DNA from: Sphingobacteriales bacterium
GTDB taxonomy: Bacteria; Bacteroidota; Bacteroidia; Chitinophagales; LD1
Assembly (NCBI GenBank): GCA_018262795.1
Contig: JADFDM010000007.1
Span: forward strand, 62,001 to 126,000
Length of the DNA stretch: 64,000 nt
Reading direction: 5' to 3'
Below the pieces are notes generated by a model, which saw nothing but the letters and a program-made list of their open reading frames with translations, had not been told where the DNA came from and ran no database searches. Both the position numbers and the translations under genes were made by a program. Below, piece after piece: positions 15,723 to 26,576 of the stretch. How positions within the stretch are numbered: the first letter of the stretch is position 1; the number at the start of each line of letters is the position of its first letter.

Positions 15723-18700
15723 GTGAAGGAAGCGGTCAAAATTTGGATTTTTGTTTTTGCGTTAATGTGTTTCAACCACGTATGGGGGGCTACCCTTGAG
15801 CCTGACTCTATTTCAAGTAATATTTTTGAGATTGAGAAGAACTCGGCCTTACAGCGCATTTCCTTTGAAAAAGTAAGAATCGCCAACGACTATAAAAGTG
15901 CCGATGTGCGCTTGATGAACCTGGTGGACAGTGTTTCCTTATTCATTCTTGCTCTTGATGTTCCCAAAGAGCAACGAAATGTGTACCTCAATCGTTTGCA
16001 GACTTACCTTAAAAACATTAACCGCTATTATTCCGACAGCTATCTTCGAAATGGAACTTATCTGGCAGTGTTGAGCTATTACCCGGTGATGATTCAATGG
16101 GATCAACAGGGAACACTTTTAGAAAACCTGAAAAGATACGAAGCGTTTTCTATTAAGGCTACGCGGTTAATTGCCAGTGACGCTATTGCAGAAGACTTTT
16201 TGACGGACTATATGAAAGATAACGAGGACGACATTTTTCGTTATGCAGATGAATATGATGACAGAGGTTTCGCTCGAAAATTACTTGAAAAAGCATTGCG
16301 ACTGGCTCCTGAATCAGCTAAAAGATATTACTCTACCGACAACTCTGTTACATCTTTACTTCGCGGGAGTAATGATATCTATGTCAAGAAGAGTTTTGAA
16401 ATTTACAATCGCTACGGACTCAAATCTCGCGCTTACATTTTATTAGATGACATTATAAAGAATAATATTTCCGTATCGGGAGCTGACTCTTTAGGAAATG
16501 ATGCCGATGAAATGTTTTCTTACTTAGTGAAAAACGCTATAAAACTCAACGGAGCCGTTAACTATTCGGCCTACCGCTATATGCACAATACCGCCATTGA
16601 TTTAATGCGCAAGGCGAATCAGGATGCCCTGAACTCTGACTATGGTTTTAGCAATTTTAAGAATCGCACCCCCGAGGAAATGTTTGCACTACTCGCCTAT
16701 GGTTACAAAGAAACTACTCTTCGCACCTTTGAAATGTTAGTGCAAATTTTGAAGAAGCGAGCAGCAGGAACACCTATCAGCAGTTCATTGATTAACTCCT
16801 TAGATAAAGAAGCGCTAAAAGATTTGATTATACACTGCGATAAAAATCAAACACTGGATAATCTGTTATCGTTGGTAGATGATGAACGGAAAGACTATTT
16901 GCTGGCGCTCACCACAATGGATGAGCAGGAAGATGTAATGCCTCCGTTTAAACAATTTAGTGCCGTGGACGAAACGGGAATACATGAGCAAGGCTATCGA
17001 AGTATGAGTGAAATTACCAAAGCCCGTCCACCAAAACCCGTATCAGCAGATGTTTCAGCGGAAGCCATTCCGGTAGTAGAGAAGCCCTTGCCGCTCAGCG
17101 AAGTGAAAGAAGAACAGCCGGTAACCGGTTTGCCGGTATTGGAGAAAAAGGAGCTTGAAATTGAAAATCCGAATGCCGGCTCTGAGTTAACTACTTCCTC
17201 TATTAAAAAGGCTGACATTGCACCTATACCTCTCCCAGAAATAAAAGTTGAGCCTATTAAAATTGAATTGACGGAGGAAGTGAAAGCCAAATTGGGGCTG
17301 AAAAAAAATATTCTCAAGACATTGCAAAACATTCCTGATTTTATTGATAAACCTTATGGAGAAGAAATTCTCACCTATGCTGCACAACGCGAACCCGATG
17401 AACTATTTAAGCGGGTAGAGATGTTTAAGCAAAAACATTACTGCACAAAATTACTGGAAGAGTGTGCGGTCAATGCTCCTATTTCTGTAAAACGATATCT
17501 CTATAATCCATCGCATCCGGTCAACTATATTTTACAGCACAGCAACAATGCGACAGTGAAAAAAATTCTGGAAATAAATCAGAAGTTGGGCTATCAAAGC
17601 AAGCCACTGTTATTGCTCGATGATATAATGAATAACCGAATCACTCTGCAACAGGCCATCACTGTTTCGGCCAATCCAATTGAGTTGTTCAGCGCATTGG
17701 TAAAGATTATTTCGCGGCCTACCTACCTCGGCAAATACAGTATTGATCATGAAATGCGCGACTACAGTCTTCGCTTTGTGCGCGAGATCAATGATAAAAT
17801 TGCTTCGGGTGCCTCGCAACCTTTCTATTCAGTAGAGTCATTCAATTCCACAGAACTTTATTTTTTGATGTTGTATGGCCGTGATGAAGTGTTTGCTTCC
17901 ACTTTCAATGGTTTGTTCAACCGCTTTATGCTGAAACTCCCCAACGGAAGTGGAGAGTCTTTTATGAATTCAATCAATCACAATCAGTTTCGTGATTTCC
18001 TATCTCTGTGCTCTAACTATGATGTGTTAGAAGAGTTTCTCGCCAAATTCAACACTGCCGAAAGAAGTAAATTACTGTCGGCATATATTTCTAATTTAGA
18101 GAAGGAACAGGATAATCTTTCATCGGTAGTACTGGTAGCCGAAGCTATTTCTAACCTTACCGATAACCAAATTCTATCGGTGTTAGAAGAAGCCATTAAA
18201 AAAGAATATGAACGAGTAACTAAGGAAAAGGATCAGATAGGTATCTCCGTTTATGGAGTGTTATCCAGCATTATTTCCGGGAATGCAAAAACAGAAGCCG
18301 GGTGGTACCACCAGATTTCACAGCAATTCAGTATCGCTCCGGTGAGTACTCTTTCGCAGGAAGCGCTTTTTAATACAGAGGGAAAATGTATAGAGCAGAT
18401 GTATTTCTACAATGATGATGACGGGCGCAGCTCCTTCATCAACTTTATGAATACTTACAAAAATCAGAATGCGTGGAAGATTGAGGATAAGTACAATTAT
18501 GTCCGTATTTCATCTGAAGATGGTCGCAGAATTGAAATCTTTGCAAACAAACCCGAGTACGAAGAAAACGGAGTAAATGCGATTAATGCTTACTTGAAAG
18601 ATAAAGCATTAGTGCCTTCCGTGATTGTGCACCGAGGGCATAGTTTCCATACCGAGGCCACTCTCGAGAAAGTGCAAAGCAGCGCTAAGCTTATATTTGT

Positions 18701-18983
18701 CGGCTCCTGCGGAGGGTTCTATAAAATTTCTATCGCTCTGGAAAATGCGCCCGATGCACATATCATCTCCACCAAACAAGTGGGCACCAAAACCGTAAAC
18801 GATGCGATGCTCTTTGCCTTAAATGAAAATATCCGACAAGGCAAAGACATTGTATGGAATGAATTTTGGGATCGGATGAAAGAGAAGTTTGCCAACAACC
18901 AATACTTCAGCGATTATATTCCTCCACAAAAAAATTTAGAGTCCACATTTATCAGAGCGTATTATAAAATTCTAGGGGTTTAA
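15723..18983 (+). CDS. Large secreted protein with C-terminal caspase-like His/Cys domain (paralogue 1)
   Basis: This 1086-residue product has a signal peptide (ending VWGA near residue 23). Its mature part holds two copies of an alpha-helical module (around residues 179-265 and 569-655, sharing KLLE-A-AP-S-KRY...LLDDI). Between them is a Pro/Lys/Glu-rich linker (~405-525). A C-terminal domain follows (~890-1086). That domain carries VHRGHSF (His970, Gly972, His973) and, after predicted strands, VGSCGGF (Cys996). A His-Gly before a Cys at the end of a hydrophobic strand is the pattern of clan CD peptidases (caspase, gingipain, clostripain), though here the His-Cys distance of 23-26 residues is short. 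I do not recognise a named family. GTG start; the paralogue begins two bases after the stop, so they form an operon. Peptidase activity is inference. Confidence 0.8.
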   Translation: MKEAVKIWIFVFALMCFNHVWGATLEPDSISSNIFEIEKNSALQRISFEKVRIANDYKSADVRLMNLVDSVSLFILALDVPKEQRNVYLNRLQTYLKNINRYYSDSYLRNGTYLAVLSYYPVMIQWDQQGTLLENLKRYEAFSIKATRLIASDAIAEDFLTDYMKDNEDDIFRYADEYDDRGFARKLLEKALRLAPESAKRYYSTDNSVTSLLRGSNDIYVKKSFEIYNRYGLKSRAYILLDDIIKNNISVSGADSLGNDADEMFSYLVKNAIKLNGAVNYSAYRYMHNTAIDLMRKANQDALNSDYGFSNFKNRTPEEMFALLAYGYKETTLRTFEMLVQILKKRAAGTPISSSLINSLDKEALKDLIIHCDKNQTLDNLLSLVDDERKDYLLALTTMDEQEDVMPPFKQFSAVDETGIHEQGYRSMSEITKARPPKPVSADVSAEAIPVVEKPLPLSEVKEEQPVTGLPVLEKKELEIENPNAGSELTTSSIKKADIAPIPLPEIKVEPIKIELTEEVKAKLGLKKNILKTLQNIPDFIDKPYGEEILTYAAQREPDELFKRVEMFKQKHYCTKLLEECAVNAPISVKRYLYNPSHPVNYILQHSNNATVKKILEINQKLGYQSKPLLLLDDIMNNRITLQQAITVSANPIELFSALVKIISRPTYLGKYSIDHEMRDYSLRFVREINDKIASGASQPFYSVESFNSTELYFLMLYGRDEVFASTFNGLFNRFMLKLPNGSGESFMNSINHNQFRDFLSLCSNYDVLEEFLAKFNTAERSKLLSAYISNLEKEQDNLSSVVLVAEAISNLTDNQILSVLEEAIKKEYERVTKEKDQIGISVYGVLSSIISGNAKTEAGWYHQISQQFSIAPVSTLSQEALFNTEGKCIEQMYFYNDDDGRSSFINFMNTYKNQNAWKIEDKYNYVRISSEDGRRIEIFANKPEYEENGVNAINAYLKDKALVPSVIVHRGHSFHTEATLEKVQSSAKLIFVGSCGGFYKISIALENAPDAHIISTKQVGTKTVNDAMLFALNENIRQGKDIVWNEFWDRMKEKFANNQYFSDYIPPQKNLESTFIRAYYKILGV

Positions 18984-18985
18984 AG

Positions 18986-21127
18986 ATGTCCATTCGCATT
19001 CATAGCACACCAATCAAGCGCTGGCCCGGCAGAGGAATCTGTTTGGCAACTTTGCTGTTGCTATTGATAAGCGGCTCGGTGCAAGCGGCTCGCGACTCCA
19101 CCAACATCCGCAGAGCCGACTACTATATTGATGACGACCAAGAACGCATTGATATGTTAGATGGAGTGTTAGATCATCGGGTGGACGTAGGCGACCTAGC
19201 AGAAAGTGTGCATGCAAGTAAAATCTATTTTGACCTCATTGACTCTATACAACGCTTAATTGATAGACCTGTTTTTGATGAAGGCCGAAAAAAACTCTTT
19301 CGCGATCATGTGTATCTGCAAATGCGGAAAGTAACCTACCGCAGTTTCACCAACATCAAGCGTTTTGATAATCAGTTCCATTTTATTCTATCCGAAATCA
19401 ACGGTATTCAGCAGGGAAATCTTCTACAGCGATTGGTCGGGAATATTCCACAGGCCTTCAACACTTTCGGCATTTTTAAAAATGAAAGTTGTGCCGATTC
19501 ATTTTTAATAGAAGCCGCTGCCTACCGCCCCGATGTGGTATTTAAACTCTACGATAGCTATTATAAAAATAGTTATGCCGCTCATGTACTCGAAGAAACT
19601 GCAAAGACGGCCCCCGTTACCGCCAAACGATATTTCAACAAGGGCGATCCTATTTATGAAATATTGAAGAAGAGTAACGACACGGCTGTAAAAGTAATTG
19701 TGCAGATAATGACCCGATACACCCGCAGATCAAATGCCTTTACGCTGCTGGATGATATTGTTCATGGCTCGCTGACAATAGAAAAAGCCGATGCCATTGG
19801 CCGATCACCGCAAAAATATCTGAAGGCCATGTTGCAAATTCGCAGCCGCCCCAATCCGCTGGGAGTGCACTCCATCGAAAGCGAACTGGAAGTGTATTCT
19901 CTGAAATTTATAAGGGTGATTAACGACCTGCACAATGAAAAAGATGCGGTGCGGTTTGCTTCCATCGAGAATTTCTCTGCCGAAGAATTATACACGCTTA
20001 TGGTATATAGCGAAGAAGAAATTTTCACCTCTTCGTTCAACGGTCTTTTCGATCGGATGATGGTGAAGCTGGGGCCTGTTTCCGGCTTTGAGTTTTTGCA
20101 GAAGGTAGGGGATAATCGTTTTAGAACCTTCATTAAAATGAGTGCCGGCTTCGGAAAATTAAGACCTTTTCTACAAAGCATGACCCCACTGTATCAGCAG
20201 TTGCTAATGATAAAATTTGCCAGTGGCCTCAGCGATTACCGTGATCTTTCTCAAGCTGTAGAAGTAGCCGATGCCTTTGGCAGCATAACCGATACCTTAG
20301 TGCTGAAAATTCTGCGCAGCACCGTCAAAATTGAATACATCAAACGAATGACTCTACACGATGCCAGAGGAGTAGCTATTTACGGATTGCTTTCTAATCT
20401 ATTTGTGGACAGAAATATCGGCAGTTCAGATTGGTTTGCTTCGGTGGCTCAGCAATATTCGCTGCCCAGTTTTGATAAGGTAAGTAATGAACTGCTTTTC
20501 GATCGCGATAATATTGACCGTTGGCTGATTTATTTTTATGATGATGAAGATGGCGACATGTCCTTTACCTCCTTTATGAAATCATTTGTTGACTCTAACT
20601 GGCAGGTCATTGATTCCGGCATTTATGTGATTATTCAGTCCACACATGGTCGGGAGGTTCAGATATATGCCAACAAACCTAAGCATGAATATGACGGGCA
20701 GGAGAAACTGGAAAATATTTTTGCTGATAATGGATTTGAGCCAAACGTGATGGTGCATCGAGGGCACAGTTATTACGCTTTCAAAACCATTGAAAAATTA
20801 AAAGACAACACGCAGATATTTGTGCTGGGTTCCTGCGGAGGGTATCACAATATATCCGGCATTATTGAGCGTGCACCCGATGCCAGCATCATCTCTTCCA
20901 AACAAATTGGAACCATGTTCGTGAACAATCCGATGCTGAAAATTATGGCCGATAGAATCAGAGAGGGACAGGATGTGGATTGGCCCTCGATGTGGAGTGA
21001 GTTGGCGGTAGCATTAAAAGACAACCCCAAGGCTTACGAAAGGTTTCAAGATTACATCCCTCCACATAAAAACCTAGGGGCTATCTTCATCAAAACATAT
21101 AATCGCCTCATGCAGGAGGCCAACTAA
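18986..21127 (+). CDS. Secreted protein with C-terminal caspase-like His/Cys domain (paralogue 2)
   Basis: The 713-residue product is a shorter relative of the gene just before it: one helical module (from about residue 192, with VLEETAKTAP...AKRYF and LLDDIVHG) and the same C-terminal domain with MVHRGHSYY (His591, Gly593, His594) and LGSCGGY (Cys617). The His-to-Cys spacing is identical in both, as is the ending DYIPPHKNLGAIFIK (DYIPPQKNLESTFIR in paralogue 1). The N-terminus is a Sec signal (LLLLLISGSVQAA) after a basic stretch. No T9SS sorting domain is visible, so it should remain periplasmic or leave by another route. The gene is translated from an ATG two bases after its partner and ends ten bases from the convergent thx gene. 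Confidence 0.8.
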   Translation: MSIRIHSTPIKRWPGRGICLATLLLLLISGSVQAARDSTNIRRADYYIDDDQERIDMLDGVLDHRVDVGDLAESVHASKIYFDLIDSIQRLIDRPVFDEGRKKLFRDHVYLQMRKVTYRSFTNIKRFDNQFHFILSEINGIQQGNLLQRLVGNIPQAFNTFGIFKNESCADSFLIEAAAYRPDVVFKLYDSYYKNSYAAHVLEETAKTAPVTAKRYFNKGDPIYEILKKSNDTAVKVIVQIMTRYTRRSNAFTLLDDIVHGSLTIEKADAIGRSPQKYLKAMLQIRSRPNPLGVHSIESELEVYSLKFIRVINDLHNEKDAVRFASIENFSAEELYTLMVYSEEEIFTSSFNGLFDRMMVKLGPVSGFEFLQKVGDNRFRTFIKMSAGFGKLRPFLQSMTPLYQQLLMIKFASGLSDYRDLSQAVEVADAFGSITDTLVLKILRSTVKIEYIKRMTLHDARGVAIYGLLSNLFVDRNIGSSDWFASVAQQYSLPSFDKVSNELLFDRDNIDRWLIYFYDDEDGDMSFTSFMKSFVDSNWQVIDSGIYVIIQSTHGREVQIYANKPKHEYDGQEKLENIFADNGFEPNVMVHRGHSYYAFKTIEKLKDNTQIFVLGSCGGYHNISGIIERAPDASIISSKQIGTMFVNNPMLKIMADRIREGQDVDWPSMWSELAVALKDNPKAYERFQDYIPPHKNLGAIFIKTYNRLMQEAN

Positions 21128-22866: not shown

Positions 22867-23199
22867 GGAGTTATGATTCTTTTAATGAAGTTCGATACAT
22901 TTTCTAATAGCTCTCCGGGTAGCTTTTGTCAATTACACAGTAGAAATAGCCCTTAAATTCAGTTAGATTAAAAAGGAGACTTAATTCTATCAAGAGTCAG
23001 CTCCCGGCAGGCTAGTCGTTTTATCTTACAAGAACATTTTAAACCATAAGAGGCTTCTGGTTTTTGCCCATTATGATTGATAGAACAGGAAGAATAGGTG
23101 GAGGGCTAACTAATCTGCTATCAAAATCACGAGGTAATATAAATCGTTGGGGAGATGGACACTTTCCGGCAATACCATCGGTGCAAAGGAAGAAGCAGA
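22867..23199. other. Gene-free stretch before the DUF6922/AbiEii remnant
   Basis: No convincing coding frame or structured element. The sequence just before the DUF6922 start is partly open in frame (ATG at 23155), but those residues look non-native, so the 5' end of the DUF6922 gene may itself be rearranged. Confidence 0.4.
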
Positions 23200-23529
23200 A
23201 TGGTTGTTCTGTATTATCTTTACCTCATAGCTGAAAAGCAAAAACCGGTATTTGAAAAGCGCATTTTCTGGGATGTGGATTTTGAAAAGTTGGATTATGA
23301 TGGCAAAGCCAACTTCATTATTGAGCGGGTGTTTGAGCGGGGCGATGTGCAAGACATCCGCAACTGCCGCAGATACTATGGCGATGAAAAGGTGGCCGAG
23401 GCATTGACGAAAGCAAAATGGCTTTCGCTTGATACGATCTCATTAGCCTGTGCAGTTTTAGGGAATAAATTAACTGATTACCGATGCTACATTACAGCAC
23501 AGTCGAACCCGCAACACTGGATATACTGA
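23200..23529 (+). CDS. DUF6922-type protein, partner of AbiEii-like toxin
   Basis: The core reads FWDVDFEKLDYDGKANFIIE and ERVFERGDVQDIRNCRRYYGDEKV, which I recognise as the DUF6922 family of small proteins found in front of AbiEii/AbiGii-type nucleotidyltransferase genes in Bacteroidota. By position it would be the antitoxin-like partner, but this is not proved for the family. I chose the ATG at 23200 (109 residues), which has AGGAAG eight bases upstream; an ATG at 23155 is possible. It overlaps the toxin frame by 46 bases. Since the toxin gene is broken, this gene may be an orphan in decay, and its N-terminus (MVVLYYLYLIAEKQKP) already looks altered. Confidence 0.65.
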   Translation: MVVLYYLYLIAEKQKPVFEKRIFWDVDFEKLDYDGKANFIIERVFERGDVQDIRNCRRYYGDEKVAEALTKAKWLSLDTISLACAVLGNKLTDYRCYITAQSNPQHWIY

Positions 23530-24053
23530 AAGGGCTTTGCGCTATTCCTGAACTCGAGAATTTTTTTCTGGTAGGAGGCACTTGCCTGTCACTTCGATAT
23601 GGTCATCGAACTTCTGAGGATTTAGATTTGTTTTCGACCGTAGATTTTAATAATGAAGAAATTATTGCGGCAGTAAAAAATTACTTCCCCCAGTTCAACT
23701 ATAAGAATACCAAAAATCCGGTAGGCATTTTCTGTTTCATTGAAAATGTGAAAGTGGATATTATGCAGTACTCATTTACCTGTTGCAACCATTCAAAATG
23801 AGGAGAGCATAAGGTTGTATAGCGATTGGGATATAGCCGCTATGAAGATTCAAGCCATCTTAGGAAAAAGAAAGAAAAATGATTGCCGGAGTTTACATGA
23901 GTTGCTAAAGCATTATTCTCTTCAGCAAATAATGGGTTGGCATTAATAGAAGTATCTGAATCAATTGTAAACATCGGCATTCCTTATGCCCTCACCTGCT
24001 TTACCGATGCTGATGAAAGTGAAGCCCCCATTAGTCTGAAAGCCCAAGCATGA
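23484..24053 (+). pseudogene. Broken AbiEii/AbiGii-type nucleotidyltransferase toxin
   Basis: The first 100 or so residues are intact: FFLVGGTCLSLRYGHRTSEDLDLFS is the nucleotidyltransferase GG...SxDLD motif, with the third acidic residue in VKVDIMQY. The frame then stops at 23799-23801. The matching continuation (NEESIRLYSDWDIAAMKIQA, then KKNDCRSLHELLKHYSLQQ) is in the next frame and stops at about 23944-23946; a third frame carries IPYALTCFTDADESE, the usual C-terminal signature, to a stop at 24051-24053. So at least two frameshifts (near 23780 and near 23940) break one ancestral gene of ~185 codons. Type IV TA toxins of this family transfer nucleotides to tRNA acceptor stems; this copy cannot be made whole. 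Confidence 0.8.
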
Positions 24054-25106: not shown

Positions 25107-26576
25107 TCAGTTCTTTACAACTTTCCGGGTAGTGTTTTTCACTTTCAGCAAATAAATGCCGGCCGGTAAAGCAGCGACCGATAGTTGTTGTTCCTTGGCG
25201 GTGATAGGAACCCGCGCTAAAATTCTCCCGGTGATATCTAAGAGTAAAATATTCTCCCCGCTAAGATTTTCGTTCAACTGCACCTGCAACACATTCGCTG
25301 TAGGGTTAGGATATACGCTGAAATCGGCAGTGGATTCATTTATCTCGCGCACATCATTGGGCAGCCAAGAGGTATCGCAGGGAGCATCAAAAAAATGCAA
25401 CGTTCTTTTGTTGTAATCGCTGAAAAACTGATGGGCGGCATACATAGCATCTACCTGCGTACTCATAAATATTTTTTCGGCTGCCGGTAGAGAAATAAAA
25501 TAAGGGTAAGAAAATGGAGTTGCCAGAATGCGGGCAAAGACCGTATCGGAGGCATAAAGCATGTAATAGTCACTATCCATCAGATGGTTGTTCTGCAATT
25601 CGGTGAACAGGTGGCCGGCCAATGTGCTGTTGATGTTTCCATCGCGCATAAAGCGTTCGGGATAGACCGGGGAGTGATCTTGCAAAAAGTAATTGGTGCA
25701 GATGCTGCGACTGGCGAGCGTGTTGTGATCGGCCAGTGCATCAGCATTTCCTTGAGGCCCTACGTTCGGATGATTGTCATATTTTGCCATACACCATTGA
25801 ATGGGAACTTGGGTCATATTCATGAGTAATTGAGAAGACTGCGCGCAGTACGACACAGCCGCGCTCCACCCAAAAAGCGTGGCCACCTCAGGTGAAAAAT
25901 TACCTCCGTTGCTCATCCCGACTGCATAATATTTGGTAGCACCATTCGTAATGCCGCGCAGCCGAAAGGTATCCATCAGTATTTTGATATTGGCAAGATC
26001 CACATTCGTTGCCGAGTCATAAGGTAGGGTTGCCCAGCGCAGTTTGCCATCGCTGTCAAAGTCGGTCTGCTTGGTGATCTCCTCCGCTTCGGTAATGATG
26101 AAAGCAAAAGTATCGGCCACGGCATCGTGCAAAAATTGCCGATAGTCTAACAAAGTAATCCAGTTAGCAGCCGCGCCACCGCTTCCGTGGAAACAAAAAA
26201 TTACACCTTTGAAATGGGGAGGGAAGTAAGAATAAACTTCCTTCAAGGTGTCGCGACCCATGATTGATTCATGTTGAATATTGATAGTGCCGATAGTGCG
26301 AAAGTTGGCGGAGACTGAAATATTCTGTGCCGGCATTAGAAGTTTGGTGTGCCATTCATCTTGGCTTTCGAGAGAAGAAACATCGCCCGCCCAATGATCG
26401 AAAACCTGAGCAGAAGGAATAGCGTTGCACCAAATATCTACCGTGTCACCTGCACTATAATTTCCACTGCCATAACCATTATTCACCGTAAGGGAATAGG
26501 TTTGCGCCACTGAAATCATGCAGAAACCGACTATCAGTAAGTTTAGGAAGGCGAGTTGTAATAAATATCTTTTCAT
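25107..26576 (-). CDS. Secreted alpha/beta-hydrolase (esterase-like) with T9SS type A sorting domain
   Basis: The 489-residue protein has a signal peptide (ISVAQ end), an InlB-B-repeat-like domain (~30-92, with SAGDTVDIWCNAIPS and FDHWAGD), an alpha/beta-hydrolase domain with oxyanion stretch FCFHGSGG and nucleophile elbow GMSNGG (Ser222), and a C-terminal type A sorting domain (~417-489; VYPNPTANVLQV, LPAGIYLLKV). It should be exported across the outer membrane by the T9SS and be anchored or released. The hydrolase part resembles PHB-depolymerase/feruloyl-esterase-like proteins; the substrate is unknown. Its first codons lie inside the left copy of the 101-bp direct repeat, and a second, useless copy of its start region is present 1.6 kb away. 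Confidence 0.85.
   Translation of the reverse strand: MKRYLLQLAFLNLLIVGFCMISVAQTYSLTVNNGYGSGNYSAGDTVDIWCNAIPSAQVFDHWAGDVSSLESQDEWHTKLLMPAQNISVSANFRTIGTINIQHESIMGRDTLKEVYSYFPPHFKGVIFCFHGSGGAAANWITLLDYRQFLHDAVADTFAFIITEAEEITKQTDFDSDGKLRWATLPYDSATNVDLANIKILMDTFRLRGITNGATKYYAVGMSNGGNFSPEVATLFGWSAAVSYCAQSSQLLMNMTQVPIQWCMAKYDNHPNVGPQGNADALADHNTLASRSICTNYFLQDHSPVYPERFMRDGNINSTLAGHLFTELQNNHLMDSDYYMLYASDTVFARILATPFSYPYFISLPAAEKIFMSTQVDAMYAAHQFFSDYNKRTLHFFDAPCDTSWLPNDVREINESTADFSVYPNPTANVLQVQLNENLSGENILLLDITGRILARVPITAKEQQLSVAALPAGIYLLKVKNTTRKVVKN

Follow-up and report, generated by a model that had tools for sequence, protein, structure and literature searches.

A probable clan CD cysteine-peptidase domain on a helical scaffold in an unnamed, sometimes paired protein family of Bacteroidota

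What kind of proteins do two adjacent genes of a Sphingobacteriales bacterium (Bacteroidota; Chitinophagales; LD1) encode? The genes lie in the window analysed here, a stretch of 64,000 nucleotides (assembly GCA_018262795.1, contig JADFDM010000007.1, positions 62,001 to 126,000), where an earlier note made from the letters alone had pointed to tandem secreted proteins sharing a caspase-like His-Gly/Cys-Gly-Gly domain. Our data suggest that the long protein (P1) and the short one (P2) represent a new, unnamed family that probably carries a clan CD cysteine-peptidase domain of the separase/CHAT kind on an alpha-helical scaffold, is probably exported, and is paired in some lineages. The clan CD fold of the C-terminal domain is predicted from a structural model; export, catalysis, pairing, substrate and regulation of P1 and P2 are what we infer.

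P1 (1086 residues, 15723..18983, GTG start assigned mechanically) and P2 (713 residues, 18986..21127) are neighbouring open reading frames (ORFs) on the plus strand, with 2 nt from the P1 stop to the P2 start, and they are paralogues lying where the earlier note had placed them. P1 consists, in order, of a hydrophobic N-terminus, a first helical module (residues 156-404, 16188..16934), a linker rich in Pro, Lys and Glu (residues ~405-520, 16935..17282), a second helical module (residues ~521-877, 17283..18353, placed by homology to the helical part of P2) and a C-terminal clan CD-like domain (residues ~878-1086, 18354..18980, placed by homology to the modelled P2 domain). P2 has a hydrophobic N-terminus, a helical region (residues 46-490, 19121..20455, from DSSP on its AlphaFold2 model) and a C-terminal clan CD-like domain (residues 500-713, 20483..21124). 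The two proteins are 36% identical across 563 residues, so the second helical module is also common to both; the shared C-terminal domain of ~190 residues that had been described is present, and the sharing is wider than that. The helical module is duplicated within P1 (156-404 against ~546-797, 27% identity, blastp E 4e-24) and single in P2, with P1 module 1 forming the second match to P2 (26% over 217 residues), and Pro, Lys and Glu make up 37% of the 130 residues preceding P1 module 2 versus 14% of the whole of P2; the earlier description of both module number and linker was accurate. Within the window's genome, P2 matches the P1 and P2 genes only.

All conservation and locus counts given below are drawn from the window and loci L049-L163 only. 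They refer to 130 distinct proteins (100 short and 30 long copies; 21 of 151 family ORFs were dropped as copies with identical last 150 residues) and to 103 distinct loci (12 of 115 removed by the same rule), with residues numbered as in P2. Both window proteins begin with a hydrophobic stretch (12-mer hydropathy 2.35 within the first 60 residues of P1 and 2.9 in P2, whose model has a helix at 14-29), and putative signal peptides cover residues 1-22 of P1 (15723..15788) and 1-34 of P2 (18986..19087), with cleavage sites placed by eye. By a crude measure (12-mer hydropathy of at least 1.9), 117 of the 130 relatives have such an N-terminal stretch and 13 do not, and 52 also have one elsewhere in the chain. 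From these sequence features, Sec export of both proteins is likely. A Pfam search of both window proteins, taken to E 1, gave no match to the C-terminal sorting domain of the type IX secretion system (T9SS), in agreement with the earlier statement that no such tail is present.

AlphaFold2 models were made of P2 only, as the isolated domain (residues 486-713, from 88 sequences; predicted local distance difference test score, pLDDT, 93.2; predicted template modelling score, pTM, 0.91) and at full length (pLDDT 90.9, pTM 0.84), and the P1 domain is assigned by homology. In the model, strand 588-592 finishes in His591-Arg592 and is followed by Gly593, His594 and a helix, while strand 611-614 leads into Gly-Ser-Cys617 and a further helix. 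The motifs concerned, placed by model, alignment and codons, are HRGHS (His591 and His594, 20756..20770) and GSCGG (Cys617, 20828..20842), and a DEDG motif (residues 520-523, 20543..20554) stands after the first core strand. In P1, HRGHS (His970 and His973) lies at 18630..18644 and GSCGG (Cys996) at 18702..18716, where reading the codons confirmed the numbering of His973 and Cys996; the second His precedes the Cys by 23 residues in P1, in P2 (an identity of spacing already seen in the earlier note) and in 130/130 relatives.

According to the excerpted text of a study of the clan (PMC4357240), the His/Cys dyad of clan CD enzymes, His before Cys, sits where two consecutive core strands, beta3 and beta4, reach their C-terminal ends; the sheet, with the order 2-1-3-4, is six-stranded and includes one antiparallel strand, and a glycine adjoins the catalytic His. 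Judged by order only, His precedes Cys in the family for His591 and Cys617 in 130/130 proteins and for His594 in 126/130; the predicted P2 model has the putative dyad where two consecutive strands end, and its strand-helix succession agrees with that described for clan CD. Gly593 adjoins His594 in 130/130, on its N-terminal side, and the glycine feature fails if His591 is catalytic. In caspases the order is His-Gly, with the glycine after the His.

Structural comparison points in the same direction. VIA-align, applied as a second look at the Foldseek matches, aligned 999 PDB chains to the isolated domain, and only two reached Z of at least 8: separase 5mz6 (Z 9.0, 158 residues, 3.8 Å, 11% identity, borderline on the tool's scale) and the C11 peptidase iotapain 6nag (Z 8.4, 183 residues, 4.8 Å). 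For full-length P2, clan CD chains stood at or near the top, intermixed with GTPases up to Z 7.7: DdvA (8rw5 and 8rot, Z 9.4 and 9.2), iotapain (Z 8.8; 181-183 aligned residues across both models), Csx29/TPR-CHAT (8eex, 7y85 and 8d9f, Z 7.9, 7.8 and 7.6) and caspase-6 (2wdp, Z 7.7). DdvA is a CHAT protein by sequence, as the CHAT profile built here matches both it and the TPR-CHAT chains. The structural rows listed did not include gingipain or amidotransferases, nor, in the case of the isolated domain, any CHAT chain, an absence that excludes nothing. The gingipain- or caspase-like order proposed from the letters is borne out in the model, with His then Cys at consecutive strand ends, but the closest matches are separase, CHAT and C11 rather than gingipain; likewise, the structure prediction that the earlier note had suggested gave a confident model with clan CD chains as the best VIA-align matches, but with GTPases first in Foldseek and modest Z values.

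The motifs are strongly conserved. HRG.S and GSCG are each present in 130/130 relatives and the second His in 126/130, and the 24 columns tabulated include seventeen letters without variation, namely F517, D520, D522, G523, H591, R592, G593, S595, G615, S616, C617 and G618 and, further on, W666, W670, Y690, P693 and N696. Cys617 is the sole fully conserved Cys within the last 600 residues (another column has Cys in 100/130). The motif is found in 0 of 1292 other ORFs of the same loci, and a looser form in 2, so its occurrence is not due to chance. Because HRGHS was among the three scan patterns, the conservation figure is in part circular, a point that counts against our interpretation; in 54 distinct proteins that whole-protein similarity, not motif patterns, had brought in, HRG.S and GSCG were present in 54/54 and the second His in 52/54.

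The dyad likely consists, by analogy with TPR-CHAT, of the second His of HRGHS (His594 in P2, His973 in P1) and Cys617 or Cys996. In the portion of PMC9729208 that describes these residues, His585 and Cys627 of TPR-CHAT are catalytic and 42 residues apart. In our alignment residue 585 falls on the latter His of HxxxH, the CHAT motif, which makes His594, the second of HxxH, the better candidate. His594 is kept in 100/100 short copies and lost in 4/30 long ones, being replaced by Leu in three related copies (G059, L103 and L106), all with Asn for Q640, and by Tyr in one further copy (G037). There are thus two kinds of loss, both confined to long copies, and we count in favour of His594 that three of the four accompany a change at Q640. 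The invariance of His and Cys that the earlier note had proposed to check therefore holds for the Cys (130/130) but not for the chosen His, the first His being invariant instead.

Links to named families by sequence are faint. Neither P1 nor P2 reached the cut-off of any Pfam or NCBIfam family, and PADLOC gave no match, as expected from the earlier note, which had recognised no named family; NCBIfam matches of P1 and P2 at E 0.008-0.035, all far under cut-offs, and one weak Pfam match among the window proteins (E 0.2) were set aside. CHAT (PF12770) and C25 matched neither protein at E up to 1, and C11 (PF03415) and C14 (PF00656) matched neither. The window's genome gave 0 CHAT matches in a 60-genome search and 0 C11 matches, and CHAT was not among the best 25 of 29 or the best 25 of 34 Pfam families listed for the relatives. 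A sequence search of the PDB with P2 returned nothing at E up to 1, and one with the domain profile returned two matches at chance level (E 0.23 and 0.55). The sole Peptidase_C14 match in the window's genome lies elsewhere and is ordinary (L220, G000:C14:94742-95563). None of the open-access papers listed by our searches was one that we recognised as a description of the family.

Profile comparison with hhalign drew on 18/20 loci for CHAT, 30/30 for C14, 6/8 for C11, 15/25 for FeoB_N and 18/25 for GATase_3. The CHAT alignment alone sets the family Cys on the catalytic Cys, and a second, lower CHAT alignment (18.5, P 0.099) has the same Cys register. Scores of 134-141, probably the result of gappy columns lining up, arose at least once among the shuffles of CHAT, of C14 and of C11, and were kept in the counts. 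Global-mode comparison gave end matches only and was not used.

Several of these observations, and others, weigh against a clan CD peptidase. At E values of 1 or below, neither window protein had a match to a Pfam peptidase. The hhalign scores are weak (CHAT 25.0, with 1/100 shuffles as high; C11 20.9, 3/100; C14 19.6, 4/100; reversed profiles 10.9-19.2), C11 hardly exceeds its own reversed profile (19.2), and the C11 and C14 alignments do not set the family Cys on the catalytic Cys. Foldseek puts small GTPases on top for the isolated domain (Rab3B, E 3.6e-4; listed TM-scores all below 0.5) and gives the full-length model no match under E 0.001. VIA-align Z values of 8-9 barely exceed the GTPase rows (up to 7.8) and the 7-8 that is usual for this tool with models lacking a clear match, and the DdvA alignment has a root-mean-square deviation of 9 Å. 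As regards the dyad, His591 never varies whereas four long copies are without His594, and the 26 residues between H2003 and C2029 of the human separase dyad, as given in the same portion of PMC9729208, equal His591-Cys617 rather than His594-Cys617 (23). Since the Z values are modest, the case depends on fold, dyad order and conservation agreeing with one another, and given the Foldseek ranking and the weak CHAT profile links we assign the family, probably of clan CD, to no named family.

An alternative that we consider unlikely, though the strongest of the rivals, is that the domain keeps the clan CD fold as a pseudo-protease, whose former active site binds a peptide or ligand and which signals through the helical scaffold. 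The four long copies that keep Cys and lose His594 (three of them also losing Gln640) would suit such a role, as would PhoB-like regulator genes at the flanks of 21/103 loci and kinase genes at 18/103, and DdvA, the top full-length match, is titled an anti-sigma factor in the PDB. Retention of HRG.S and GSCG in 130/130 relatives, and of the second His in every short copy, nevertheless exceeds, in our judgement, what binding alone usually demands.

A very improbable reading makes the domain an amidotransferase, or a hydrolase related to one, with GSCGGY supplying the nucleophile as in class I glutamine amidotransferases (GATase_3/CobQ-like). Weak Pfam matches to GATase_3 in 10/88 domain members (best E 8e-4) and to CbiG_mid in 3/88 (best E 5e-4) favour this idea, but in class I amidotransferases the catalytic His follows the Cys, in 99 rows no His beyond Cys617 reaches 95% conservation, and the GATase_3 profile comparison is at shuffle level (17.4, with 19/100 as high). 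We give equally little credence to a clan CD enzyme that joins peptides as a transpeptidase or ligase, for example in tailoring envelope proteins: some legumain-type enzymes join peptides, and the same fold and dyad evidence would apply, but nothing in our data favours ligation over hydrolysis. A Ras-like GTPase fold, which heads the Foldseek list, accounts for most listed VIA-align rows (Z 6.4-7.8) and gives the top global-mode score (FeoB, 10.8, from 37 end columns), is the least credible of all, as 1/130 proteins has the P-loop GxxxxGK[ST] within its last 260 residues, the Foldseek TM-scores are low, VIA-align puts clan CD chains higher and FeoB_N profile comparison is at shuffle level (14.2, 39/100).

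How widespread is the family, and is the pairing general? With P2 as query, 37/60 genomes matched, comprising all 30 sampled from the window's family (f1, its own genome included) and 7 others. A scan of the class matched 15/295 genomes, and one of the phylum with the domain profile matched 15/395, namely the window's genome, 13 genomes of family f20 (placed by the tree together with named Chitinophaga) and a 46-residue frame containing a stop that we take as spurious. Among the non-matching genomes listed for the order, all belong to f17 and none to f20 (360 further non-matching genomes fall outside that list). A pattern scan at one genome per species confirmed at least 580 of at least 591 stretches, and the 79 loci kept include Chitinophaga isolates (C. 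costaii and C. filiformis) and many metagenome-assembled genomes. None of the 4 stretches of viral contigs that fitted a peptide pattern encoded a relative. Family members also occur on contigs labelled Sphingomonadales, delta proteobacterium and Moraniibacteriota (L118, L128 and L134); the first clusters closely with Bacteroidota copies, making mislabelling likely, and the other two form a separate branch.

The 151 family ORFs fall into two length classes, short (672-813 residues) and long (840-1196 residues), and the domain content of their N-terminal parts is known from a Pfam scan of 67 members. A quick, unrooted tree of the 130 proteins puts all 30 long copies on the same side of a single branch (SH-aLRT 99), which would fit a single duplication; the tree tool warns of long branches, L056, L058 and L061 among the long copies. 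Long copies occur in families f1, f4, f9, f18 and f19. At 27/103 loci a long and a short copy are adjacent, in every case long then short on one strand, and with mechanically assigned starts 15 of these pairs overlap (by 1-23 nt, one by 185 nt) and 12 are spaced 0-8 nt apart. The tandem arrangement is therefore conserved in part of the family only: the short copy stands alone at 73/103 loci and the long copy at 3/103, some of these at contig ends, and in both sampled genomes of f4 the two copies are on separate contigs. Two f20 genomes (G580:C1 and G611:C7) have two copies each, far apart on one contig, possibly from a separate duplication.

If P1 and P2 are peptidases of clan CD, the Cys of GSCG would attack the peptide bond and the second His of HRGHS would activate it, and the pocket for the substrate may owe its shape to the invariant D520/D522 and R592. 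Binding or selection of the substrate would fall to the helical part, which, by analogy with what is reported for TPR-CHAT, would also hold the domain inactive until it receives a signal. In the lineage of the window, where the two copies share one operon, their products would probably cooperate; the short one would be the conserved enzyme, and the long one either an enzyme or a regulator. A more specific version of this scheme is possible, though we put it forward tentatively and think it may well be wrong: an exported two-chain protease of separase/TPR-CHAT architecture, in which one ancient duplication gave a coupled long-short pair, the short chain remaining the conserved enzyme and the long chain, with its second scaffold module and flexible arm, becoming a regulator whose catalytic His was lost in two lineages. 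The short form would then belong to the core gene set of Chitinophagaceae-like genomes, and a PhoB/PhoR-like system encoded next to it may be its partner in envelope signalling.

The surroundings of the genes bear on that last suggestion. A PhoB-like response regulator and a short PhoR/PnpS-like histidine kinase lie beside the family gene in several of the order's families, at L062:10878-12693, L061:3929-5655, L051:6640-7677 and others; such genes are co-directional in part of f1 and in f9, and divergent in the fetched f20 loci except L063. Around the window pair there are no PhoB/PhoR-like genes, and the best regulator match in the window's genome is 38% identical, for which reasons we downgraded the idea of a two-component system as fixed partner. 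TrmH-like and MutS-like neighbours, both named by eye, are found in many f74/f81 loci, and the window pair has neither arrangement; it is preceded by a divergent P-type ATPase gene and followed by genes for HU and a DUF520 protein. A divergent small lipoprotein-like gene (LIC11966-like) stands beside family genes in 17/115 loci, duplicates included; the copy at L069:12152-12643 is above the cut-off for the NCBIfam LIC11966 family surface protein, another lies at L054:6281-6790, and a search of the window's genome, run without a positive control, did not find the gene. Elsewhere in the window, a DUF6922 gene followed by a 105-residue AbiEii-like ORF that matches the first part of its profile only (23155-23801) may be the remnant of a toxin-antitoxin pair, and the protein at 25107-26576 combines a domain like the InlB B-repeat with a T9SS sorting tail, so this genome probably uses the type IX pathway.

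If our interpretation is true, an unrecognised family would be added, in environmental bacteria, to a well-known enzyme clan, and probably exported Bacteroidota proteins would display a design, helical scaffold plus caspase fold, that separase and the CRISPR protease TPR-CHAT already exemplify. With 13 f20 genomes carrying the family and none lacking it among those listed, a conserved envelope protease may be unannotated in a common environmental group. The combination of a long member sometimes without His and a short member that keeps it would also allow testing how pseudo-enzyme partners arise beside active proteases.

Among known systems, CHAT proteins (Csx29, the Craspase protease TPR-CHAT, and DdvA) resemble the family in layout, having a helical region followed by a clan CD domain, with a strand leading to His and then a strand leading to GxC (LGACET in TPR-CHAT, LGSCGG in the P1/P2 family). 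They also provide structural matches of Z 7.6-9.4 to the full-length model and the weak profile alignments that set the family Cys on the CHAT Cys. They differ in that P1 and P2 are probably exported, that the window proteins and genome lack a Pfam CHAT match, and that their motif is HxxxH rather than HxxH. C11 peptidases (iotapain, clostripain) are secreted clan CD enzymes of Bacteroidota, as P1 and P2 probably are (Z 8.4-8.8), and differ in the missing Pfam match, in P1/P2 and in the window's genome, and the weak profile score; their chain is about 350 residues, with no comparable helical scaffold ahead of the domain. Separase (C50) is eukaryotic and intracellular and has a helical scaffold; its clan CD protease domain gives the top Z for the isolated domain (9.0), at 11% identity in the structural alignment and with no Pfam match in the window proteins. 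Where PMC9729208 describes the two dyads, His-Cys spacing is 42 in TPR-CHAT against 23 here, and the 26 of separase equals His591-Cys617 and is near His594-Cys617. Gingipain (C25), as characterized in the excerpted text of PMC4357240, is likewise a secreted clan CD enzyme of Bacteroidota, from which P1 and P2 differ in having neither a Pfam C25 match nor a T9SS tail.

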